The position numbers and the translations under genes are program-made. A model generated the notes under the pieces. The model made no database searches, was not told the DNA's origin, and saw only the letters and a list, made by a program, of their open reading frames with translations. This document shows, one piece after another, positions 3,266-57,650 of a DNA stretch of 64,000 nucleotides (within the stretch, counting starts at the first letter, position 1; each line of letters starts with the position of its first letter). This stretch comes from Citrobacter farmeri (GTDB taxonomy: Bacteria; Pseudomonadota; Gammaproteobacteria; Enterobacterales; Enterobacteriaceae), in NCBI RefSeq assembly GCF_019048065.1, contig NZ_CP077291.1:1984001-2048000 (forward strand), written 5' to 3'.

Positions 3266-3655
3266 ATGCACCCGGCTATCACATTAAACTCAGCGTCCCA
3301 TGGGCTTCCCCCCGCCGGCCACTACTCGGCGAGTGTGACTGCAGGGGGATTTGTTTTCATCTCAGGACAACTGCCAGTCACCCGGCACGGTGAGAAAAAG
3401 GCGGGGACGTCTTTTGAGGAACAGACCAGACAAGTTCTGGAAAATGTCGATGCCTGCCTGAAGGGGGCCGGCGTATCCCGTCAGCATTTGGTTTCGGTTC
3501 GTGTCTATGTGACAGATATCAATCAATGGCCGACGTTTAATGAAATCTACGCCGAATGGATTGGTGATTTCCGTCCATCTCGTGTCGTGGCAGGGGTTGC
3601 AGAACTGCATTATGGTTCTGCCTTAGAAGTGGAAGCGATCGCGCTGGCACAATAA
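3266..3655 (+). CDS. RidA/YjgF family enamine/imine deaminase
   Basis: 129-residue member of the Rid family. Rid proteins speed hydrolysis of reactive enamine/imine intermediates released by PLP enzymes. Visible family features are the GFVFISGQ strand, the central helix TRQVLENVDACLKGAG, and the C-terminal PSRVVAGV...LEVEAIA with the conserved Arg and Glu positions. ATG 3266 has AGGAG eight bases upstream; the longer frame begins at an unsupported TTG (3260). It is followed after 31 bases by a PLP-dependent ammonia-lyase, suggesting it clears that enzyme's imine product. Confidence 0.88.
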   Translation: MHPAITLNSASHGLPPAGHYSASVTAGGFVFISGQLPVTRHGEKKAGTSFEEQTRQVLENVDACLKGAGVSRQHLVSVRVYVTDINQWPTFNEIYAEWIGDFRPSRVVAGVAELHYGSALEVEAIALAQ

Positions 3656-3686
3656 GCCCGATGCTTAACAATAGACAGGTGAAAAA

Positions 3687-4667
3687 ATGACTGAAACTAC
3701 ACGTCCTGAATATGCTGATGTTGCCGCCGCCGCAGAGCGCATTGAAGGATACGCAAACAAGACGCCCGTAATGACCTCCCGGACCGTCAATGAAGAATTT
3801 GGCGCTGACGTTTTCTTTAAATGCGAAAACCTCCAGCGTATGGGGGCCTTTAAGTTTCGTGGGGCGATGAATGCATTACGCCAGTTTACGCCGGAACAGC
3901 GTGCAGCTGGCGTGGTGACATTTTCTTCCGGAAATCATGCCCAGGCGATCGCGCTGTCAGCAAAGCTACTGGGTATTCCGGCGAGAATCATCATGCCGCA
4001 TGATGCGCCGGCCGCAAAAGTGGCGGCGACCAAAGGGTATGGCGGCAATGTCGTCATGTACGATCGCTATACGGAAGATCGTGAACAGATTGGTCGTGAA
4101 TTGGCTGAAAAACAAGGATTAACGCTCATTCCTCCCTACGATCATCCCCATGTCATCGCCGGTCAGGGCACCGCAACCAAAGAGTTGATTGAGGAGGTTG
4201 GCCCACTGGATGTGCTTTTTGTCTGTCTGGGGGGCGGGGGATTGCTTTCAGGTTCAGCACTGGCAGCCCGGCAGCTCTCGCCAGATTGCACAATTTATGG
4301 CGTGGAGCCGGAAGCCGGTAACGACGGACAGCAGTCGTTTCGAAGTGGTAAAATCGTTCACATCGATACGCCAAAAACGATCGCTGATGGCGCACAGACG
4401 CAACATCTGGGGCACTATACGTTCCCTCTGATTCAAAAATACGTTAATGATATTCTGACCGTTTCAGACGATGAATTAATTGCCTCAATGAAGTTTATGG
4501 CGGAGCGAATGAAAATTGTCGCAGAGCCTACCGGTTGTCTTGGCTTTGCGGCGGCCAGGGCGAGAAAAGCGGAACTCAGCGGGAAAAAAGTCGGCATTAT
4601 TATCAGCGGCGGCAATGTGGATATCGCGCGCTACGGTGAGTTTCTGGCCGGGAAATCCGTCTCGTGA
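3687..4667 (+). CDS. Threo-3-hydroxyaspartate ammonia-lyase / serine-threonine dehydratase-like PLP enzyme
   Basis: Fold-type II PLP enzyme of 326 residues. The PLP lysine is in MGAFKFRGA (near residue 55), the substrate loop is SSGNHAQA, and the phosphate-binding loop is GGGGLLSG. It lacks the C-terminal regulatory ACT domain of biosynthetic threonine deaminase. Length and motifs fit the serine racemase / threo-3-hydroxyaspartate dehydratase group, which converts 3-hydroxyaspartate to an imine that becomes oxaloacetate plus ammonia. Catabolic threonine/serine dehydratase activity is the alternative. An AGGTG precedes the ATG. The Rid protein upstream and the regulator downstream suggest one small catabolic or detoxifying operon. 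Confidence 0.85.
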   Translation: MTETTRPEYADVAAAAERIEGYANKTPVMTSRTVNEEFGADVFFKCENLQRMGAFKFRGAMNALRQFTPEQRAAGVVTFSSGNHAQAIALSAKLLGIPARIIMPHDAPAAKVAATKGYGGNVVMYDRYTEDREQIGRELAEKQGLTLIPPYDHPHVIAGQGTATKELIEEVGPLDVLFVCLGGGGLLSGSALAARQLSPDCTIYGVEPEAGNDGQQSFRSGKIVHIDTPKTIADGAQTQHLGHYTFPLIQKYVNDILTVSDDELIASMKFMAERMKIVAEPTGCLGFAAARARKAELSGKKVGIIISGGNVDIARYGEFLAGKSVS

Positions 4668-4719: not shown

Positions 4720-5349
4720 ATGCCAAAAAACGACGAAAATTCGCTTCTCAGCCAACTTGACACTATCGCGAAGGGATTAAGCGAAACGTTTTCCCCCTTT
4801 TGCGAAGTGGTTGTTCATGACCTGAAGGATCCTGAGCATGCGATTATGTCCATACATAACAATTTATCCGGACGAGAGGCTGGACAACCGGCTACCGAGC
4901 TCGGACTGGCAAGGATTGCGTCTGCGGATTTTCCCGAAATTATTGCGAACTACGGCAATCAGTTTGCCGACGGCCGCCCGGTAAAAAGTACGTCTATTGG
5001 CATTAAGGATGAAGAGGGCAAATACGTTGCGGCATTATGCCTTAATGTCGATATGACGCTTTTCCGGGGGATGCAGAGCGCACTGGCGCGTTTTACTGAA
5101 ACAGAGAGTTCTCCGGTGCGTGAACATCTTGATCCCGGTAGTACGGAAGTTATTCGCCAGCGAATCGATGATTTTGCTGCGAAACGCGCCACCACGGCTC
5201 GCGCGCTTAAAACGGAAGACAGAAAGATGTTGATCCAACAGTTACGAAAGGAGGGATTGTTAAACGTACGCAAATCCATGGATACGGTGGCACAGCATTT
5301 AGGGGTATCAAGAGCAACAGCCTACCTCTATGCGCGCCAGTCCGGGTGA
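4720..5349 (+). CDS. YheO/DauR-type transcriptional regulator (PAS-like plus HTH)
   Basis: 209-residue regulator with an N-terminal YheO-type PAS-like domain (residues 10-120; FSPFCEVVVHDLKDPEHAI) and a C-terminal helix-turn-helix (residues 165-205; LRKEGLLNVRKSMDTVAQHL, VSRATAYLYAR). Relatives control amino-acid catabolic genes, for example DauR for D-arginine use in Pseudomonas. GGGAG lies 7 bases before the ATG. Its place after the ammonia-lyase suggests it governs the cluster, perhaps through the palindrome at 3234-3250; this is inference. Confidence 0.86.
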   Translation: MPKNDENSLLSQLDTIAKGLSETFSPFCEVVVHDLKDPEHAIMSIHNNLSGREAGQPATELGLARIASADFPEIIANYGNQFADGRPVKSTSIGIKDEEGKYVAALCLNVDMTLFRGMQSALARFTETESSPVREHLDPGSTEVIRQRIDDFAAKRATTARALKTEDRKMLIQQLRKEGLLNVRKSMDTVAQHLGVSRATAYLYARQSG

Positions 5350-5434
5350 ATCCGACCCGGTGTGCTATAGTTTTTGGTTTCTCTTTTGGTGAGTAGACGT
5401 TTTATCAATCACTAGCCACAACAGGAACTGAAAT

Positions 5435-5896
5435 GTGTCTCAACGCCCACCACTGACTACACGCAGGACAGCATTTTTCGCCGACACCACTGCGCTGCTC
5501 CTGTTCTTCACGACAACAGGCATTATTAATGAACGCGTGATAGCGGGTATGACGTGGGAACAGGTGCTACATGCTCGCCTCCTGGGCGCGATTCTGATGG
5601 TGCCGGTGGCCAGACCTTACGGCATATGGCGGGACTGGTTGATGAAGCGAGCCGGAGAGAATCGGATTTCCCAACTGCTATGGGACAGTATGGCGCTGGT
5701 CAGTTTCCAGGTGCCGCTTTATGCTGCGATCATTGCGTTTAGCGGAGCTTCGGGGAGCGGCTTGATCCAGGGGACGCTGGGCGCAGCCTTAATGATGCTC
5801 TTGCTGGGGCGGCCTTATGGGGCGTTTCTTAACGGGGTACGTAAACTGTTCGGTTTACCGCCGGGGGGTGACAAACCCATGTCCCTGAATAGCTGA
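5435..5896 (+). CDS. alaE: AlaE-family L-alanine exporter
   Basis: 153-residue inner-membrane protein with four hydrophobic segments (about 17-35, 48-62, 80-102, 110-128) and the paired family motifs ARPYGIWRDW and GRPYGAFLNG, as in E. coli AlaE (WPYGMYRDLF). AlaE exports L-alanine to relieve internal excess. The start is GTG 5435 after AGGAAC. E. coli alaE lies elsewhere, so this could be a second copy or a divergent paralogue; its substrate is inferred. It follows an amino-acid-type catabolic cluster on the same strand. Confidence 0.8.
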   Translation: MSQRPPLTTRRTAFFADTTALLLFFTTTGIINERVIAGMTWEQVLHARLLGAILMVPVARPYGIWRDWLMKRAGENRISQLLWDSMALVSFQVPLYAAIIAFSGASGSGLIQGTLGAALMMLLLGRPYGAFLNGVRKLFGLPPGGDKPMSLNS

Positions 5897-6119
5897 ACCC
5901 GCTCCAGACCAGGGTTGTCTCAGTCAACTGGAAAAGGAAATTACGGTATTGCGCAATATATCATCTTTGAAACATTGCGTTGTCTGAATAATAAGCAAAT
6001 GAGCGGTAATCATAATAGAAAAACGCCCACAGCTATTGCAGGGGGAATTTGAGTTATGTATTATCCCCGCCCGGTTCTGATGATGAGTAGATTCTCAATC
6101 AGAAATAATAACCAGCAGA
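5897..6119. other. Leader region of the tRNA-like element
   Basis: No supported gene. It contains a 7-bp inverted repeat TTCTGAT (6075-6081) / ATCAGAA (6098-6104) and AT-rich sequence that could hold a promoter for the RNA element that follows. Confidence 0.5.
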
Positions 6120-6194
6120 CCGCCATTAGCTCATCTGGAAGAGCGAACGACTTTTGTTGTAGGGAACGGGGTTCGAGGCCTCGATGGCGGCCCA
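6120..6194 (+). ncRNA. tRNA-like element (Lys-type UUU loop) with broken anticodon stem
   Basis: The 75 bases fold as a tRNA: 7-bp acceptor stem CCGCCAT/ATGGCGG, T8, D arm GCTC/GAGC with a GG-containing loop, T arm CGGGG/CCTCG with loop TTCGAGG, discriminator base and encoded CCA (6192-6194). The loop at the anticodon position is CTTTTGT (anticodon TTT), but the supporting arms AACGA and TGTAG pair at only one of five positions. An alternative 5-bp hairpin ACGAC-TTTT-GTTGT is possible. A strong terminator follows at 6203. It is either a decayed tRNA or a tRNA-mimic small RNA; it is unlikely to be a working decoder. Confidence 0.55.
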
Positions 6195-50546: not shown

Positions 50547-51353
50547 TTAGCTATGTGCGCGTCTTTTCATTCGTCGCAACATCCACAATAGCGCCAGTAC
50601 CATGGCGAGATAACCCATCACGTAAATTCCCAGTTGTGTTCTCGTCTGTCGTTCAGGATCCGCGGCCCAGACCAGAAAGGCGGTAACATCCCGAGCGTAT
50701 TGTTTTTCAGTTTGCGCGACATGCGCTTCTGCCTGCCATTCGATTTCGCCATCCGCCAGCGGCTTTGGCATGTTAATCACGCCACCGGGATAGTAGCGAT
50801 TGGCTTTCATTTCCGGATCGTCGGGCAGGTAACCGGTTAAGAGGGCGAAGAGGTAATCCGCGCCTTGCTCAGAGTAGGGTATAAACGCGTCCAGCAGAAA
50901 TTGCGGAAAGCCGCGATCGTACGTACGGGCGCGAACGATATAACTCAAATCCACGGGTAGCGCGCCGTTATTCAGGTATCTCGCTTCCTGCTCATTCAGG
51001 TAAGGCGAAATAAAGCTGTCATTCAGGGTGCCGTCCCGTTCGCCGGGTTGACCGTCATCCTGGATAGTCGGGAATACATAGCCGCTGGCGAGGCTTTTCG
51101 CCTCTTCTGTCGTCAGTTCCGGGCCGCCGGGTTTCGTCAGTGTGCGGAACGTAAGGTATTTCATGCTGTGACAGGCTCTGCATTTTTCTTCATAAACCTG
51201 CAAACCGCGCCGCAGTTGCTCTTTATCATAGTCACCGGCGAGACCGCTGAAGCTCCAGTCCTGTCGTGTCGGAACGGCGTCTTGCGCGAATGCTGACCCT
51301 ATTGCGAAGAAGACTATCCATAGCATGCGGTAGCTGAGTACTTGTCTCATCAT
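50547..51353 (-). CDS. petC: Cytochrome c1 of a bc1 complex
   Basis: 268 residues. Signal peptide (about 1-23, SAFA-QDA), covalent haem motif CRACH (Cys58-His62), conserved NNGALPVDLSYIVRAR, axial Met195 in GGVINMPKP, and a single C-terminal anchor helix (about 242-260) with basic tail. This is a complete c1 subunit that would take electrons from the Rieske protein and pass them to a periplasmic carrier. It needs Ccm haem attachment. AGGA precedes ATG 51353; two bases after the cytochrome b stop. No such gene is known at this place in E. coli. Confidence 0.95.
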   Translation of the reverse strand: MMRQVLSYRMLWIVFFAIGSAFAQDAVPTRQDWSFSGLAGDYDKEQLRRGLQVYEEKCRACHSMKYLTFRTLTKPGGPELTTEEAKSLASGYVFPTIQDDGQPGERDGTLNDSFISPYLNEQEARYLNNGALPVDLSYIVRARTYDRGFPQFLLDAFIPYSEQGADYLFALLTGYLPDDPEMKANRYYPGGVINMPKPLADGEIEWQAEAHVAQTEKQYARDVTAFLVWAADPERQTRTQLGIYVMGYLAMVLALLWMLRRMKRRAHS

Positions 51354-51355
51354 CT

Positions 51356-52495
51356 TTAATCCTGCTTTTCCAGAAAGCGCCGACAGGGCAGCACCAGTAA
51401 AAACCAGGCGAAATAACCGAGCGTCGACAATTGCGATGCCGCGCGGATCCAGCCCTCTTCATTGCGAATGCCTTCCGTCAGGTCGGGGCCAACCAGCGCT
51501 TTCGAACCCAGCCACCCCAGAAAACAGACGTTCAGCACCCATAGCCAGAAACCCACTTTCACCCATTTGTTGTAGTGGCGAAAACGAGCGCGAGAGGTAT
51601 CCAGCCAGGGGAGAAAGTAGAAGACCAGTACCGCACCACACATTGCCGTCAGCCCGACGAGTTCATTTGGAAAGCAGCGCAGAATGGAAAAGAAAGGGAG
51701 AAAGTACCACTCCGGGGCGACAATCGCCGGAGTGACCGTGGGATCCGCCGGGATGAAGTTATCCGCACTACTCAGATAATGAGGTGCGAAAAATAAAAAC
51801 CAGGCGAACAGCATCATAAAGAGCGTGATTTTGATGGCATCAGAATCCGTGATTCGGTAATCAAAGAGCAAACTACGGGATGCCTTTTCGCTGAAGGTCC
51901 GTTTCATCGCGTGGGCAAATGCCGACTGTACCGTGCGGACGTGGAAAATCGTCATTACCACGACAGCAAAGGGAAGGATAAAGTGCAGTACGTAAAAGCG
52001 CCCCAGCGTGGGGGTACCTGGGGCATATCCGCCCACCAGGAAAGTGTACAGCCCATCGCCCACCACCGGGATGGCGCGGGCGAAACTGGTGATGACCGTC
52101 GCCGCCCAGTAGCTTTTTTGTCCCCAAATCAGGCTGTAGCCGAGAAACGCAGTGATCATCAGCAGCACGTACAGCGTGACGCTAATCATCCACATCGTGA
52201 TGTACGGTCTGCGGTAGACGCTGTAATACATGCCCCGGAAAATATGCAGATAGCAGGCGAAGAAAAATAGCGATGCGCCGATGGCGTGCATATTACGCAG
52301 CAGTTCTCCGTGGCTCACCGCCCGGACGATGTGGATGATAGAATCAAATGCCTGTTCTGCCGTTGGAACGTAAAACATCGCCAGCACGATGCCGGTCAGT
52401 ATCTGTATCCCGAGCATCACCAGCAGGATCGCGCCAATGGCGAATAGCCATACACCGGCGAGGGAGCGGGGGAAAGGAATGCGCCAACGGATCAT
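51356..52495 (-). CDS. petB: Cytochrome b of a bc1 complex
   Basis: 379 residues from MIRWRIPFPRSLAG (52495). Eight membrane segments. Bis-haem ligands His70/His84 and His171/His185 have the canonical 14-residue spacing. The Qo-site motif PEWY is at 261-264. Full-length rather than split b6/subunit IV type. It oxidises quinol at the periplasmic face and recycles one electron to quinone. The start lies one base after the Rieske stop with AAGGA inside the Rieske end, so the two are translationally coupled; the longer frame to 52585 overlaps the Rieske gene. Confidence 0.96.
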   Translation of the reverse strand: MIRWRIPFPRSLAGVWLFAIGAILLVMLGIQILTGIVLAMFYVPTAEQAFDSIIHIVRAVSHGELLRNMHAIGASLFFFACYLHIFRGMYYSVYRRPYITMWMISVTLYVLLMITAFLGYSLIWGQKSYWAATVITSFARAIPVVGDGLYTFLVGGYAPGTPTLGRFYVLHFILPFAVVVMTIFHVRTVQSAFAHAMKRTFSEKASRSLLFDYRITDSDAIKITLFMMLFAWFLFFAPHYLSSADNFIPADPTVTPAIVAPEWYFLPFFSILRCFPNELVGLTAMCGAVLVFYFLPWLDTSRARFRHYNKWVKVGFWLWVLNVCFLGWLGSKALVGPDLTEGIRNEEGWIRAASQLSTLGYFAWFLLVLPCRRFLEKQD

Positions 52496-52496
52496 T

Positions 52497-53048
52497 TCAC
52501 GTGTCCTTAGCGCCAATACGCACGGTCTGACCATCAGGGTAAAAGGCGTAATCTGGAACTGCCAGATTGGCGGTCGCGGGTCCACGCGTCACCCGTCCGG
52601 AAGCATCAAACTCCGAACCGTGACACGGGCAAATCCAGCCCTGTCCGCCGGGTCTGGCATTGGGGACACAACCGGCATGCGGACAATACCCCTGAACAAT
52701 CAGCCACTGTGGATGGCCTGACGCGACCCGTTCACTGTCCGATTGGGGATCGATAAGCGTGCTGTGGTCGACGGTGCGGGCAGAGGCTACCTCTTCCGGC
52801 GTGCGGTGATGGATGAGGATTAACTTTCCTTGCCAGATACGTCTGACGGTTTGTCCCGCGGCGACACCCACCAGCGAGACGTCTATCGGCTCGTTTTCCC
52901 CGCGGGCCGTTTCGTCAGGCCCCAATGCGGAAATCAACGGCCAGACGGCGGCGGTCACTCCCGCAGCGCCAACGAATTTTGTCAATTTACACAGGCAGTT
53001 GCGTCGTTGCTCCTGAATATCATCACCCGACGGTTTGTTTTCCACCAC
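52497..53048 (-). CDS. petA: Rieske [2Fe-2S] subunit of a bc1 complex
   Basis: 183 residues from GTG 53048 (GGGAG seven bases upstream). A twin-arginine segment (QRRNCLCKLTKF) leads into a single hydrophobic helix (about 25-43), consistent with Tat-dependent anchoring. Cluster box I is CPHAGC (ligands Cys122 and His124) and box II CPCHGS (Cys140 and His143), with Cys127/Cys142 for the disulfide. All cluster residues are intact. Twelve bases after pseudoazurin. Confidence 0.95.
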   Translation of the reverse strand: MVENKPSGDDIQEQRRNCLCKLTKFVGAAGVTAAVWPLISALGPDETARGENEPIDVSLVGVAAGQTVRRIWQGKLILIHHRTPEEVASARTVDHSTLIDPQSDSERVASGHPQWLIVQGYCPHAGCVPNARPGGQGWICPCHGSEFDASGRVTRGPATANLAVPDYAFYPDGQTVRIGAKDT

Positions 53049-53060
53049 CGCAGCTCTCCC

Positions 53061-53501
53061 TTACTGTTTTTCAATGCGCGAATAGATCTCCTGGAAGCGC
53101 TTATCAGCGATCCCTGGCGCCTTAAATGCCCGGTAGGTGTCCGGCAGGGTGGCGTCGCCGACTTTGATGAGCATCACCATCCCTTGTGCATAGTGCGGGG
53201 TACATTTAATGCCGTAGAATCCCGCGTCGTCATATTTCACCGCGATCTCTTCATCAATTTTGCCGATAAATCCCGGGTAGCCCGCAGGCGACAGCTCAGC
53301 AATTGAGGCGGCATTATGGCTTTTATGCTTGCGGATAAATTTCACCGTGTCGCCAGGTTGAATCTCCAGATAGTCCGGCTCATAGACCATGGGTCCCGCT
53401 GAGCCTCGATTCTTCATCAGCACTTCGTGGGTTTGCGCGAAAGCGGAGGTGGTGAGGGCCAGCAGACACAACGCTTTCAGACTTTGTTTGACATATTTCA
53501 T
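53061..53501 (-). CDS. Pseudoazurin (type 1 blue copper protein)
   Basis: 146 residues from MKYVKQSLKALC (53501). Signal peptide about 1-22 (SAFA-QTHE). Type 1 copper ligands are complete: His62 in KHKSHNAAS, then Cys100, His103 and Met108 in KCTPHYAQGM. Family members are periplasmic electron carriers that typically serve copper nitrite or N2O reductases in denitrifiers. Encoded between the ABC ATPase (10 bases) and the Rieske subunit (12 bases), it is the likely electron acceptor of this bc1 complex; the final acceptor is not in the window. Confidence 0.93.
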   Translation of the reverse strand: MKYVKQSLKALCLLALTTSAFAQTHEVLMKNRGSAGPMVYEPDYLEIQPGDTVKFIRKHKSHNAASIAELSPAGYPGFIGKIDEEIAVKYDDAGFYGIKCTPHYAQGMVMLIKVGDATLPDTYRAFKAPGIADKRFQEIYSRIEKQ

Positions 53502-53511
53502 GGGATCTTCC

Positions 53512-54327
53512 TTATGCTCCTTCAGGTCTTTGGTAACGAATAAAACAGGTCGCACCCTGCGGATCGTGCTCGACGATAGCGTCAATACCAAACCAGGCGC
53601 GGAGATTGTCGCGGGTGAAAATGGCGCAGGGACGGCCCTGCATTTCCAGACGACCGGCGTTCATCACGATGATGCGATCGCAGAACATGGCGGCATGATT
53701 GAGATCGTGGAGGGCGGCGACAACCGTCAGCTTTTCGCGTTTCACCAGGCTGAGAAGACCAATCTGATGCTGAATATCGAGATGGTTAGTAGGCTCGTCC
53801 ATCAGTAACAGTTGCGGCTGTTGCGCGAGGGCGCGGGCAATATGCAGGCGTTGCTTTTCGCCGCCGGAAAAGGTGTGCCAGCAGCGGTGGCGAAGATGCT
53901 GAAGATCGACTTTCTCCAGCATGGTCTGGACGATGTCGTCATCGTTGCCCGACCACGGGTTCAGCAGGCTCAGCCACGGCGTTCGCCCCAGCGAGACGGC
54001 CTGAAGCGCGGTCAGGCGTTCACTGGTTTCCGCCTGCTGCTCGACCAGCGCGACCTGCTGTGCCAGTTGGCGGCGAGAATAACGGTGCAGCGATTTTTGT
54101 TGCAACAGGATGTGACCGGCGGTGGGCTTCAGCAGACCGGCCAGCAGAGAAATCAGCGATGTTTTACCGGATCCATTGGGGCCAATAATGCCAACAAACT
54201 CACCCGCCGCCACGCTGAGTGAGACATCATTGACAATCATTTTGCCTTTCACCTGCCAGTGCAGGCGCTGTGCCTGAATGATGGCGTCCCTGGCGGCAAC
54301 GGGAGTCGGTACAGGATTGACGGTCAT
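53512..54327 (-). CDS. ABC transporter ATP-binding protein (BtuD/FecE family)
   Basis: 271 residues. Walker A GPNGSGKTS (near 50), signature FSGGEKQRLHIARAL, Walker B LLLMDEPTNHLD, and H-loop in ALHDLNHAAMF. Typical of the iron-siderophore/cobalamin import family. Overlaps the permease stop by four bases. Confidence 0.95.
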   Translation of the reverse strand: MTVNPVPTPVAARDAIIQAQRLHWQVKGKMIVNDVSLSVAAGEFVGIIGPNGSGKTSLISLLAGLLKPTAGHILLQQKSLHRYSRRQLAQQVALVEQQAETSERLTALQAVSLGRTPWLSLLNPWSGNDDDIVQTMLEKVDLQHLRHRCWHTFSGGEKQRLHIARALAQQPQLLLMDEPTNHLDIQHQIGLLSLVKREKLTVVAALHDLNHAAMFCDRIIVMNAGRLEMQGRPCAIFTRDNLRAWFGIDAIVEHDPQGATCFIRYQRPEGA

Positions 54328-55391
54328 TTAGCCTGGTTTCCTCTGATCAGGATGATGGAAAACGCGGGCGCACCGACCAGCGCCGTGATAACGCCTATTG
54401 GCAGAACTTGTCCTGGGAGCAGCGTACGGGAAATAACATCGGCGACGATCAGAAATATCGCGCCGATCAGCGCGCTGACGGGCAGCAGTCGATGATGCTG
54501 ATTGCCTACCAACAGGCGGGCGGCATGGGGGATCACCAGCCCGACAAAGCCAATGGCGCCGACGATGGAAACCATGACGGCCGTCATACCGGTCACGGCG
54601 GCAATCAGCACGCCACGGGTTCGTTTCACCGGAATACCCAGCGATGCCGCGGATTCCGCGCCAAAGGAGAAGGCATCCAGATGACGGGCATAACAGAAAC
54701 AAATCGCGACGCCAGCCAGCGCGGTGGGGATCGCCAGTACTACGTCCGGCCAGCGGACGCCGCTCAGATTCCCGAGTAACCAGAACATAATGCCGCGCGC
54801 CTGTTCCGCGTTGGCGGAGCGGGTGATGATCAGTGAGGTCAGGGCATTGAATAACTGAGAACTGGCAATACCGGCAAGAATGATTTGCGTGGTAATGCCG
54901 CCGCCCTGCCTGCCGCCTGCGGCAACGGCCAGCAAGGCCACAAACAGAAAGGCGGTCAGGGCACCAATAAAGGCGCCGAACGACATGGTTATCATGCCAG
55001 CGCCCAGTCCGGTCAGCGCAACCAGCACGGCTCCGGTAGACGCCCCGGCTGAAATGCCCAGCAGATAGGGCTCGGCAAGCGCATTACGCAGTAAGGACTG
55101 TAAGACCGCGCCCGACACGGCCAGGCAGGCACCACAACTGGCGGAGACTAACGCACGGGTCAGGCGATAGTTCCAGACGATCCCGGCGTCCAGCGCATCA
55201 ACCGGATAATGGGTATCAAACAGACGGTTCGCCAGCGTATTGAGCACGTGCTGCCAGGGAATAAATGTCTCGCCAATGGCGATCCCTGCCAGCAGAACAG
55301 CGCACATCAGCACGCTAACCCAGAGGGCATGACCGCAAACATTAACCGCTAACCGACTGACGGCGTGACGCGTCCTGCGTAAATCGCTCAT
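54324..55391 (-). CDS. ABC transporter permease (BtuC/FecCD family)
   Basis: 355 residues from MSDLRRTRHAV (AGG six bases upstream; ATG 55415 is possible). About ten membrane helices, with the family motifs RLTRALVSASCGACLAVSGA, LGISAGAS and FVGLVIPHAARLLVG. BtuCD/FhuB-type importer permease. The cobalamin riboswitch upstream of the operon favours a corrinoid or a related metal chelate as substrate; the sequence itself cannot separate siderophore from corrinoid. Confidence 0.95.
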   Translation of the reverse strand: MSDLRRTRHAVSRLAVNVCGHALWVSVLMCAVLLAGIAIGETFIPWQHVLNTLANRLFDTHYPVDALDAGIVWNYRLTRALVSASCGACLAVSGAVLQSLLRNALAEPYLLGISAGASTGAVLVALTGLGAGMITMSFGAFIGALTAFLFVALLAVAAGGRQGGGITTQIILAGIASSQLFNALTSLIITRSANAEQARGIMFWLLGNLSGVRWPDVVLAIPTALAGVAICFCYARHLDAFSFGAESAASLGIPVKRTRGVLIAAVTGMTAVMVSIVGAIGFVGLVIPHAARLLVGNQHHRLLPVSALIGAIFLIVADVISRTLLPGQVLPIGVITALVGAPAFSIILIRGNQAK

Positions 55392-55456
55392 AGTAACCTG
55401 TGTTTCGGAGTGCATAAAACGCGCCGGACCCGGCAGGATCTGGCGCGAAACGAGGA

Positions 55457-56509
55457 TTACTTCGCGGCCTGAGGATGCGCTAAGCCATACTCAACCAGGG
55501 CATCCGCCAGCTTTTCAACACCGTCAATGGTTCTGATACCAGCATTCATGGTCTGTACGTCAATCACGGGCAGATGATTGGCTTTTACGGCGGGGATCAG
55601 TTGGGTGACCGGATCGGATTTCAGGTAATCCATTTTCACCTGCCAGTCATCAGCAGGGAAACGACGGCGACTCATTTCCCCCAGCACAATCACCGAGGGT
55701 TGGGCTTTGGCGATGGTTTCCCAACCCACTGTCGGCCACTCTTCGGCAGAGTCTATGACGTTTTTGACGCCCAGCGTTTGCGCAATCCAGGCCGCTGGAC
55801 CTAATTTCCCGGCAACGTAAGGATCAAGTTGCAGGTCGGCGCTTGAGAACCAGAAGACAGCGGAGACATTGCTCTCCATCCCGGCGATTTTATTTTTCGC
55901 GGCGGCTTCGCGCGCCTTAAGGCTGGCAATCAGTTCTTCACCTTTATCCTGAACGTCGAAAATTGTCGCTAAGTCGGCGACTTCCTGATAGACCATCGCG
56001 ATATCAAACATGCCTTTGCGGACGCCGTCACCGCCATCTTCGTTATCTTTCGCGCAGTCTGCCGGTGCGGTATACACCGGCACTTTCAATTCACTGAATT
56101 GTTCGTAAGACGCCACGGTACCGGCAGGACCGATTTGCCATTCGAACTGGCTGGCGACCAGATCCGGTTTTTTGGCAATGATGCCTTCGAAGCTGGGGAT
56201 GTTCTGCGCAATAACGGCAATCTTGTCATTTGCCGCCTTATACGCGTCGGGTACTGGCCCGAACCATAGCGACGTGCCCACCACACGGTCAGCCAGACCC
56301 AGTGCATACAGGATCTCTGTACTGTTTTGTCCCACGGTGGCAACACGTTTTGGTGCCGCGTTAAAGGTGATATCCCGACCACAGTTTTTTATCGTCAAGG
56401 GATATTCCGTTTTTGCTGCATGAGAAAGACCTGAGGTGAGAAACAGTGCGGTACCTGCAACAACCAGAAGCGTTTTTTTATAAGATAAAGAGGTAAAATT
56501 AGCGTGCAT
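55457..56509 (-). CDS. ABC transporter periplasmic substrate-binding protein (BtuF/FecB family)
   Basis: 350 residues from MHANFTSLSYKKTLLV (GGGA eight to nine bases upstream; other ATGs at 56518, 56527 and 56551 are weaker). Signal peptide ends near SHA-AKTEY. Helical-backbone (type III) binding protein with RVATVGQNSTEILYALGL and KPDLVASQFEW. First gene of the seven-gene operon, directly after the cobalamin riboswitch. Probably delivers a corrinoid or metal chelate. Confidence 0.92.
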   Translation of the reverse strand: MHANFTSLSYKKTLLVVAGTALFLTSGLSHAAKTEYPLTIKNCGRDITFNAAPKRVATVGQNSTEILYALGLADRVVGTSLWFGPVPDAYKAANDKIAVIAQNIPSFEGIIAKKPDLVASQFEWQIGPAGTVASYEQFSELKVPVYTAPADCAKDNEDGGDGVRKGMFDIAMVYQEVADLATIFDVQDKGEELIASLKAREAAAKNKIAGMESNVSAVFWFSSADLQLDPYVAGKLGPAAWIAQTLGVKNVIDSAEEWPTVGWETIAKAQPSVIVLGEMSRRRFPADDWQVKMDYLKSDPVTQLIPAVKANHLPVIDVQTMNAGIRTIDGVEKLADALVEYGLAHPQAAK

Positions 56510-56739
56510 TATTATCATCCCGTTCATGCCAGAATCTGAACGTCTGGTCATGGATTATGTCGTTCCATATATCGGGAGAGTTCATGACGATAGATGACAT
56601 GACATCGTGAAATTTGCGCATGACCTTATGCAAATAATAGAAGTATGCAGTTCAGTCAGAAAACCGGTTCACCCTTTCACGGTGGCTGATGTCAAATAAA
56701 TCATCCCATGGACCATCCCGTCCACTCAATGGGTATAAA
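56510..56739 (-). other. Leader between riboswitch and first structural gene
   Basis: About 230 bases without a gene. It contains a hairpin CCCAT...ATGGG with inner TGGAC/GTCCA arms (56705-56733) just after the aptamer on the sense strand, a candidate expression platform. No classic T-tract terminator follows, so translational or Rho-dependent control is possible. Confidence 0.5.
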
Positions 56740-56942
56740 TTTGACAGCAGGTCTCCTGACTCACGGTAATCAGAATATCGGCCTTCCCATAAAGATTCGC
56801 TTTACAGTGGCCTGCAACAAAATATGCTGCACGAGGATATTCTGCATCCGCCTACAGTTGCGGGGGCAGTCATGGCATGGGATTAGAATAATCCGCACCA
56901 TGTTCCTATTCACTACAATGTTGGTGTAATGAAATGCTGTCG
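56740..56942 (-). promoter_or_regulatory. Cobalamin (B12) riboswitch
   Basis: Sense is the minus strand. Ordered conserved segments: CCGCAACTGTA (56853-56863), GCCACTG (56805-56811), GGGAAGG (56782-56788) and the B12 box AGTCAGGAGACCTGC (56747-56761). A candidate P1 helix pairs ACAGC (56936-56940) with GCTGT (56744-56748). This is the full adenosylcobalamin-type aptamer, located upstream of the ABC-pseudoazurin-bc1 operon. Confidence 0.95.
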
Positions 56943-57134
56943 GAAAAGACTGTATCGGCAATTGTTAACAAGATCAATCACAAGGATAAATGAGACTAAA
57001 ATGGCCGGGTTGAGTATTTAATTGTTAAATATCATGTAGTTATTTGGTGTTCAATAATAAAATTTGGGATAGCTAAAGGTCATTATGAAAAGCTAAATGA
57101 GAATTAATTGACATTGATCAACTAATATTCTTAG

Positions 57135-57650
57135 TCATGATAATTTATGTGATCTTTCCATATGCACTAATTGCCAGTCGTCGTGCATATCCATCACTAC
57201 CTGGAAATCATTACCTTGCCAGAAGGAATAACCACCCGGTAAAAAATGGTGGGTATGTAAGTATAATAGGGTGTATTGCTGTTGCTCGCAGAATGTTTCA
57301 GCAAAAGCGAGTAACTGGCGACCAATCCCCTGCCTGCGATAACGTTTATCCACATAGCAGCGACAAATTTCTGCCGTCTCTGTCAAAATATAACGTCCAC
57401 GAAGTTCCGCTATTCTGTCGTCATATTGGCAGACGGCCAGGGTAGCAATAAGTTCATGCTTGTCACTCCAGGCGCAAAGCAATAAATTCCGCTCCTGTTG
57501 AATATACTGCTGTCGCAGGTGAAAAACATCTTCTCCGGCAGAGGGGACAGGTCTGTCAGCAGCAAAGAATTCATTTAAATGTTGTGTCAGAAATAACTGA
57601 ACCGCCGGAATATCCTCTCCGGTCATTTCACGTATGGTAAAGGGAATCAC
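57135..57650 (-). CDS. GNAT-family N-acetyltransferase
   Basis: 171 residues. GNAT fold with the acetyl-CoA P-loop YRRQGIGRQLL (near 104-114) preceded by the strand AEICRCYVDKRY, and a C-terminal YSFWQGNDF. Substrate not predictable. It lies between the riboswitch and dauA on the same strand as the bc1 operon, but the 190-base gap with its own riboswitch suggests separate transcription. Confidence 0.85.
   Translation of the reverse strand: MIPFTIREMTGEDIPAVQLFLTQHLNEFFAADRPVPSAGEDVFHLRQQYIQQERNLLLCAWSDKHELIATLAVCQYDDRIAELRGRYILTETAEICRCYVDKRYRRQGIGRQLLAFAETFCEQQQYTLLYLHTHHFLPGGYSFWQGNDFQVVMDMHDDWQLVHMERSHKLS

Follow-up and report, generated by a model that had tools for sequence, protein, structure and literature searches.

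The window analysed here is a stretch of 64,000 nucleotides of Citrobacter farmeri DNA (NZ_CP077291.1, positions 1,984,001-2,048,000); all coordinates refer to this window, and its genome is labelled G000. From 56956 to 50547 on the minus strand it carries an operon in which a cobalamin riboswitch is followed by genes for the periplasmic binding protein, permease and ATPase of an ATP-binding cassette importer, for a pseudoazurin, and for the Rieske protein, cytochrome b and cytochrome c1 of a bc1 complex. Judged by sequence comparison, the chances are about even that this operon is a cobalt importer with an electron line of its own, in which electrons would pass from quinol through bc1 and pseudoazurin to a Co(III) chelate. 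Reductive cobalt import along this line would explain most of the evidence.

The seven open reading frames (ORFs) are intact and all lie on the minus strand; their identities, taken from Pfam and NCBIfam models, agree with the gene order given in a first-pass annotation of the window. The aptamer (56729..56956, minus strand) scored 76.9 bits with RF00174 in cmscan, above the gathering threshold of 31.5, and is classed as a riboswitch by this score; corrinoid binding and switching of expression are predicted from the aptamer class. The intergenic gaps from the binding protein onward are 41, -4, 10, 12, 1 and 2 bases, and the last five were recomputed with the same values as in the first-pass annotation. 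Such tight packing suggests that the seven genes form a single transcript. A promoter and terminator separating the importer genes from the redox genes had been named by the annotation as evidence that would speak against its reading. A consensus scan of the operon region gave six promoter-like and nine terminator-like sites, close to the 4.4 and 6.6 found in shuffled sequences; one weak site before the pseudoazurin gene, not uniformly kept, is taken up below.

The same seven genes in the same order, with RF00174 upstream, were found in all 14 enterobacterial loci collected, so the arrangement is not a matter of chance. These loci are the window, 11 loci (L001-L011) from a scan of GTDB species genomes for close cytochrome b proteins (seven Citrobacter, three Klebsiella and one Intestinirhabdus), and two loci (L092 and L093) of the further carriers G134 and G034, found by whole-genome search. 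Pseudoazurin follows the ATPase gene after 10-18 bases and the bc1 genes follow pseudoazurin after 12-31 bases in 14/14. Median pairwise dN/dS (ratio of non-synonymous to synonymous substitution rates) from binding protein to cytochrome c1 was low in all seven genes, at 0.049, 0.056, 0.084, 0.046, 0.078, 0.070 and 0.102, based in the same gene order on 86, 91, 87, 50, 73, 88 and 39 of 91 pairs after saturated dS values were dropped. The distances of the importer-pseudoazurin part correlated with those of the bc1 part (Mantel r 0.888; none of 2000 permutations as high), as would be expected of one inherited unit, with host kinship also contributing.

The operon stands in at least four genomic contexts among the 14 loci. 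The window shares with nine further loci a position between ychH and dauA, where the operon lies together with a GNAT gene; in E. coli these two genes are 55 bases apart. Downstream of the operon the two Klebsiella loci L002 and L003 have ccm genes, and their other flank differs; in L004 both flanks hold other genes, and L093 has flagellar genes on one side and, on the other, genes recognised from their translations that we take to be gmk and spoT. The riboswitch-importer-pseudoazurin-bc1 unit moves between genomic sites.

Cytochrome c1 (PF02167) was matched in 8 of 392 Enterobacteriaceae genomes, belonging to 6 of 154 genera; three further genomes assigned to the same genus as the window gave no match. 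A close binding protein (at least 80 percent identity) occurred in the same eight genomes. Seven of these carriers were seen in full, while for G023 the observation is limited to the riboswitch and the genes of the binding protein, pseudoazurin and cytochrome c1; the carriers overlap with the loci above (L001 is G042, L003 is G348, L007 is G168, L008 is G319 and L093 is G034). The statement of the first-pass annotation that enterobacteria lack a bc1 complex thus holds as a description of the family at large, where the complex is unusual, but it is not universal. Across the GTDB order PF02167 matched 247 of 394 genomes; the matches outside the family reached at most 92.7 bits, compared with 220-239 inside, and are therefore regarded as other kinds of bc1. 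Pseudoazurin was found in 23 of 384 genomes of the order, two of the proteins being close (100 and 82 percent) and the rest 34-41 percent identical. Complete E. coli genomes gave no operon match in a near-mode search and no plasmid record held 80 percent of the operon; one source lists a plasmid pseudoazurin of Klebsiella michiganensis with 88 percent identity. Literature searches found no description of a riboswitch-importer-pseudoazurin-bc1 operon, nor is it described in the available portions of PMC7689651, PMC12848317, PMC5987163, PMC5918138, PMC8390676, PMC12239276, PMC11236759, PMC8151138 and PMC7726332.

The importer and its cargo

The binding protein is CbtJ-like (55457..56509, minus strand, starting at 56509 or at an upstream ATG at 56551). 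The permease (54324..55415, minus strand; FecCD 295.5 bits) and the ATPase (53512..54327, minus strand; ABC_tran 131.7 bits) are called CbtK-like and CbtL-like, the letters being given by position. Binding protein, permease and ATPase are 53.7, 66 and 61 percent identical to those of an importer locus of Sinorhizobium meliloti (L179/L180) with the same gene order, and the L179 importer also lies behind a cobalamin riboswitch (RF00174, 118.6 bits). From its replicon and riboswitch this locus is probably the studied cbtJKL, a name that the record annotation does not give. In the portions available, CbtJKL is described as a Co(II) carrier under adenosylcobalamin riboswitch control that was at first taken for a cobalamin importer (PMC7689651) and that is required at trace cobalt (PMC12239276); both credit the study to Cheng et al. 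2011. The S. meliloti locus differs from the operon in that a methyltransferase gene follows the importer and the stretch holds no pseudoazurin or bc1 match. On this kinship, assignment of the operon's importer to the CbtJKL kind is well supported, and cobalt is the probable cargo of the Citrobacter copy.

The first-pass annotation had called the importer corrinoid-type, which did not hold up. The scores with the BtuFCD models are far below the cut-offs (BtuF 30.7 against 234, BtuC 209.2 against 334, BtuD 128.7 against 281 bits). The alternative offered by the same annotation fits best, namely a different metal chelate as cargo and its predicted reduction as the task of the redox part. A siderophore importer of the EitABC kind was rejected as well, with 298.6 bits for EitA and 273.4 for EitC against NCBIfam cut-offs of 640 and 485. 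The models of a hypothetical F420-0 trio were the top-scoring NCBIfam models for permease and ATPase, though below their cut-offs, and this identity was likewise set aside (TIGR03868, TIGR03869 and TIGR03873 with 187.7, 274.4 and 283.5 bits against 392.4, 437.35 and 372.4). In an alignment of 29 sequences the binding protein has invariant Trp/Tyr residues and no invariant His. A fold search showed the class III fold common to BtuF and haem binders, and a resemblance to chelate binders of many kinds that indicates no single cargo.

The operon is found with vitamin B12 synthesis. CbiD is encoded in all eight carriers, as compared with 92 of 392 family genomes (Fisher p 7e-6, not corrected for kinship). 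Three RF00174 matches were counted in six of the eight carriers and two in the other two; the further riboswitches are read as those of cob and btuB, and the cob one was checked in G000, where it lies 3 kb upstream of CbiD. At more distant enterobacterial binding-protein loci RF00174 was not found (0 of 17, 4-kb stretches).

Several other binding-protein genes were observed. The window genome encodes a second, distant member of the same family (41 percent; G000:C1:2160677-2161636), the enterobacterial genome G352 has a 48 percent identical CbtJ-like protein with no RF00174 within its 4-kb locus (L070), and in Intestinirhabdus alba (L001) the binding-protein gene is doubled (3346-4374 and 5082-6122), the proteins being 79 and 81 percent identical to that of the window.

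Pseudoazurin and bc1 as a predicted electron line

The pseudoazurin (53061..53501, minus strand) has a signal-peptide-like start and was recognised by Copper-bind (51.4 bits); with TIGR02375 it scored 108.1 bits against a cut-off of 109.85. Pseudoazurins of the PDB match it at up to 99 bits and its close relatives are named pseudoazurin at NCBI. The Rieske iron-sulfur subunit (52497..53048, minus strand) scored 147.6 bits with TIGR01416, above the cut-off of 97.4, cytochrome b (51356..52495, minus strand) matched Cytochrome_B (181.5 bits) and Cytochrom_B_C (97.8 bits), and cytochrome c1 (50547..51353, minus strand) matched Cytochrom_C1 (231.3 bits). The cofactor ligands are in place, as the first-pass annotation had claimed. 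The copper ligands H, C, H and M of pseudoazurin (SHNA and CTPHYAQGM in the window, pattern SHNA and C.PHY..GM) are kept in 14/14 sequences, as are the Rieske ligand boxes (CPHAGC and CPCHGSEFD in the window) and the CXXCH motif and methionine ligand of cytochrome c1 (CRACH and NMPKPL in the window). In cytochrome b two HX13H haem-histidine pairs and PEWY are kept, the pattern match overlapping the second pair in L003 and L004. Between them the three catalytic subunits carry haem, iron-sulfur and quinol-site motifs, from which assembly and quinol oxidation are predicted. The Rieske boxes CPHAGC and GSEFD depart from the usual CTHLGC and GSxYD by Thr-to-Pro and Tyr-to-Phe changes, which may lower the potential.

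Among the best 120 of 7930 cytochrome b matches listed, the close group (at least 55 percent) includes Citrobacter, Phytobacter, Providencia and Morganella proteins, the last three genera being represented by proteins alone, without their gene neighbourhood. The nearest cytochrome b outside the enterobacterial group in the same set is about 47 percent identical, and several genera at this level belong to the Hyphomicrobiales. The operon's bc1 is like alphaproteobacterial complexes in its three subunits (Rieske protein and cytochromes b and c1) and their complete set of ligands; it differs in being encoded within a metal-import operon, in hosts otherwise mostly without bc1.

A pseudoazurin gene beside such an importer is also found outside the enterobacteria. 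Eighteen pseudoazurin loci were picked to span genera from 60 listed of 314 plasmid matches, and in 10 of them pseudoazurin stands directly behind a CbtJKL-like trio, as it does in two Sinorhizobium fredii loci fetched via their binding protein (L177 and L178). All 15 scanned alpha- and betaproteobacterial loci with the trio, a plasmid-borne sample that includes L052 and L053 while the second S. meliloti strain (L180) was unscanned, have RF00174 just upstream; they are not 15 independent cases, since L052 and L183 are near copies. Within the fetched stretch pseudoazurin lies directly downstream of the trio in 12 of the 15, in L052 the match runs across the record start, and L179 (S. meliloti) and L053 have none. 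The unit was seen in Shinella, Sinorhizobium, Paracoccus, Thioclava, Haematobacter, Cereibacter, Roseomonas, Diaphorobacter and Comamonas. These clusters share with the operon the order of riboswitch, importer and pseudoazurin, but no bc1 genes were found in the fetched stretches of the 12 loci. In L187, L189 and L197 cob genes are found close to the trio, and other genes downstream of some units encode a methyltransferase or an OprD porin.

At the eight fetched pseudoazurin loci without the trio RF00174 was not found, and some of these adjoin nirK, nosZ or NnrS genes. Denitrification pseudoazurins serve N-oxide reductases. That of Paracoccus does so according to the available part of PMC12848317. 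The operon's pseudoazurin is related to such proteins (PDB 1adw and 4bwu) in sequence and copper ligands, whereas the cobalamin riboswitch sets it apart from the eight loci without the trio. In the pseudoazurin tree the enterobacterial proteins form one clade (100/99), nearest to those of Shinella and S. fredii/americanum (83/82), and importer-linked and unlinked proteins are clustered (3 changes; none of 200 shuffles as low). On these neighbourhoods, pseudoazurin is judged to belong with the CbtJKL-like importer in other proteobacteria too.

Three further observations were made at these loci. In Diaphorobacter (L185, 6465-7805, Pfam-checked) and Comamonas (L187, 6426-7757) the OprD-family porin gene directly follows pseudoazurin and is a possible outer-membrane route for the cargo. 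S. fredii GR64 (L177) has a second cobalamin riboswitch (4099-4320, 126 bits) 4.4 kb upstream of the importer's own. The pseudoazurin in the riboswitch cluster of P. pantotrophus (L191) was considered as the crystallised 1adw; it scores 107.6 bits to 1adw, below other chains, and is therefore taken as a different protein.

Alpha- and betaproteobacteria normally own a bc1 complex able to reduce pseudoazurin. Most enterobacteria are without one, which would be why the transplanted unit brings Rieske protein, cytochrome b and cytochrome c1. In L002 ccmA, B, C, E, F, G and H lie directly downstream of cytochrome c1, and the same row was read from ORF translations in L003. Matches to PF01578 of CcmF and CcmC size adjoin the operon in G348; a third match elsewhere in that genome has 267 residues, a size present in every carrier, and is not read as CcmC or CcmF. 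By its gene content the unit appears to carry what is needed for making reduced pseudoazurin and little else, and this is the main argument that pseudoazurin would act as an electron donor here.

Leader elements and the neighbouring gene

A conserved leader block (56669..56716, minus strand), identified in an alignment of 14 leaders, directly follows the aptamer. It comprises a hairpin (TGGAC-GGGATG-GTCCA) as well as what may be a 15-codon leader ORF (MVHGMIYLTSATVKG) with the candidate leader peptide MVHG(M/V)IYLT, whose start is ATG in 12 of 14 loci, GTG in L093 and lost in L001. A second conserved block (ATGTCATCTATCGTCATG) lies at about 56606-56583 on the minus strand, and its opposite strand shows spaced ATGAC repeats.

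Between the binding-protein and permease genes lies a hairpin (55420..55447, minus strand) with a terminator-like scan match inside. Four of its 10 pairs are changed on both sides among 13 aligned sequences (L004 excluded), and a clear T-run is wanting in most loci. This covarying hairpin may provide for a higher level of binding protein. Upstream of the riboswitch a GNAT acetyltransferase is encoded (57135..57650, minus strand; Acetyltransf_1 51.1 bits). Its gene accompanies the operon at 12 of the 14 enterobacterial loci and was not found in L003 and L004; in two betaproteobacteria (L185 and L187) the importer is flanked by a divergently oriented gene for a GNAT with 35-36 percent identity.

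Proposed mechanism and rival explanations

In the proposed mechanism bc1 would oxidise membrane quinol and then reduce pseudoazurin, which would pass its electrons to a Co(III) chelate at the binding protein, and the resulting Co(II) would be imported for vitamin B12 synthesis; we infer the direction of electron flow, Co(III) as the acceptor and the cargo. Plentiful B12 is predicted from the aptamer class to shut the operon off through the riboswitch. The alpha- and betaproteobacterial unit would lean on the bc1 of its host, and the unit transplanted to enterobacteria would supply its own, with cytochrome c maturation genes added in the two Klebsiella loci. Cobalt can cycle between Co(III) and Co(II), and the usual potentials of quinol and pseudoazurin would allow reduction of some Co(III) chelates. 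Reductive iron uptake, in which a tight M(III) complex is reduced and M(II) is then imported, is alike in outline; metal, importer and reductase differ, and the operon is no member of that family. That a portable set of importer, blue copper protein and bc1, with haem c maturation where required, carries out reductive cobalt import, bc1 serving vitamin supply and not respiration, is a tentative proposal with slightly less than an even chance.

Several points weigh against reductive cobalt import. Extracellular cobalt is often Co(II), and a proton-pumping bc1 complex is an outsized apparatus for acquiring a trace metal. In S. meliloti no pseudoazurin gene adjoins the importer, whose loss is reported, in the portion of PMC7689651 available, to be compensated by 1-10 µM CoCl2, so that reduction is not always required. 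Linked and unlinked pseudoazurins do not fall into two clean clades (3 changes; p-AU, from the approximately unbiased test, 0.078 for an unlinked clade). The last part of the ATPase gene, immediately ahead of pseudoazurin, contains a weak terminator-like site (53560-53545); the counterpart stretches of the 14 loci fold with -0.6 to -11.0 kcal/mol and their stems differ, and the site is therefore not taken as a conserved transcript end. The remaining points, a peroxidase that is a candidate pseudoazurin partner and gaps in the search for other acceptors, bear also on the first of the rival explanations.

According to this explanation, which we consider rather unlikely, bc1 and pseudoazurin form a respiratory side branch feeding a periplasmic reductase encoded elsewhere, and share the riboswitch only because such a branch pays off under B12 shortage. 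As stated in the accessible part of PMC12848317, pseudoazurin donates electrons to nitrite, nitric oxide (NO) and nitrous oxide (N2O) reductases. A CCP/MauG peroxidase (PF03150) is encoded in five of the eight carriers searched, the window genome included, but is absent from G348, G042 and G034. The Cu-oxidase matches have 477-546 residues, by which length we take them to be CueO and FtsP, apart from one 625-residue protein in G319, and G348 and G034 have none of nitrite-reductase size. Class I cytochrome c (PF00034), searched for in five carrier genomes, gave no match in G348 and G034. The match shares an open frame with the PF03150 peroxidase in G000 and G134, and G042 has two matches, one weak, the other presumably resembling a gluconate-dehydrogenase subunit. 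The NosZ propeller model matched none of the eight carriers, a weak test that does not show absence, as no control genome was matched either. G348 and G034 are thus without an acceptor of the three control-backed kinds, cd1 nitrite reductase, NO reductase and cytochrome oxidases not having been sought, and for this reason the importer's own cargo is the simplest acceptor. The periplasmic acceptor postulated by the first-pass annotation consequently has a candidate in the peroxidase of five carriers, but none of the tested kinds in these two. A side branch would also leave unexplained why pseudoazurin follows the importer in alpha- and betaproteobacteria.

A somewhat less likely explanation keeps the electron line and changes the cargo to a corrinoid or corrinoid precursor, whose cobalt would be reduced before import, for instance to drop the upper ligand. 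The B12 riboswitch match, the class III fold and the aromatic invariant residues of the binding protein are in line with it; the low Btu scores are not, nor is the Co(II) cargo of the nearest studied relative as reported in the consulted part of PMC7689651. The carriers moreover own CbiD of de novo B12 synthesis and, apart from the operon's riboswitch, two further ones (six carriers) or one (two carriers), read as cob and btuB. It is improbable that pseudoazurin ferries metal to the importer through the periplasm and that bc1 joined the cluster for another reason. The 12 alpha- and betaproteobacterial loci with pseudoazurin next to the importer and no bc1 in the fetched stretch would suit a metal carrier, but in the family sample cytochrome c1 never occurs without the close binding protein (8/8), and bc1 follows closely behind pseudoazurin in every locus with all redox ligands kept. 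Most improbable of all is a defence against N2O, in which destruction of B12 by N2O would open the riboswitch and electrons from bc1 and pseudoazurin would go into N2O removal: enterobacteria are not known as denitrifiers, and the NosZ search, weak as it is, found nothing in the carriers. In its favour, N2O modulates B12-riboswitch genes in Paracoccus denitrificans, as reported in the available parts of PMC5987163 and PMC12848317.

The notion that Enterobacteriaceae never carry a bc1 complex is corrected by the eight carriers. Cobalt supply limits B12 synthesis, and if reductive cobalt import is true, the operon would provide a defined, transferable gene set with which it can be tested. It would likewise account for the pseudoazurin genes behind cobalamin riboswitches across a range of proteobacteria, and the bc1 complex would gain a role outside energy metabolism.

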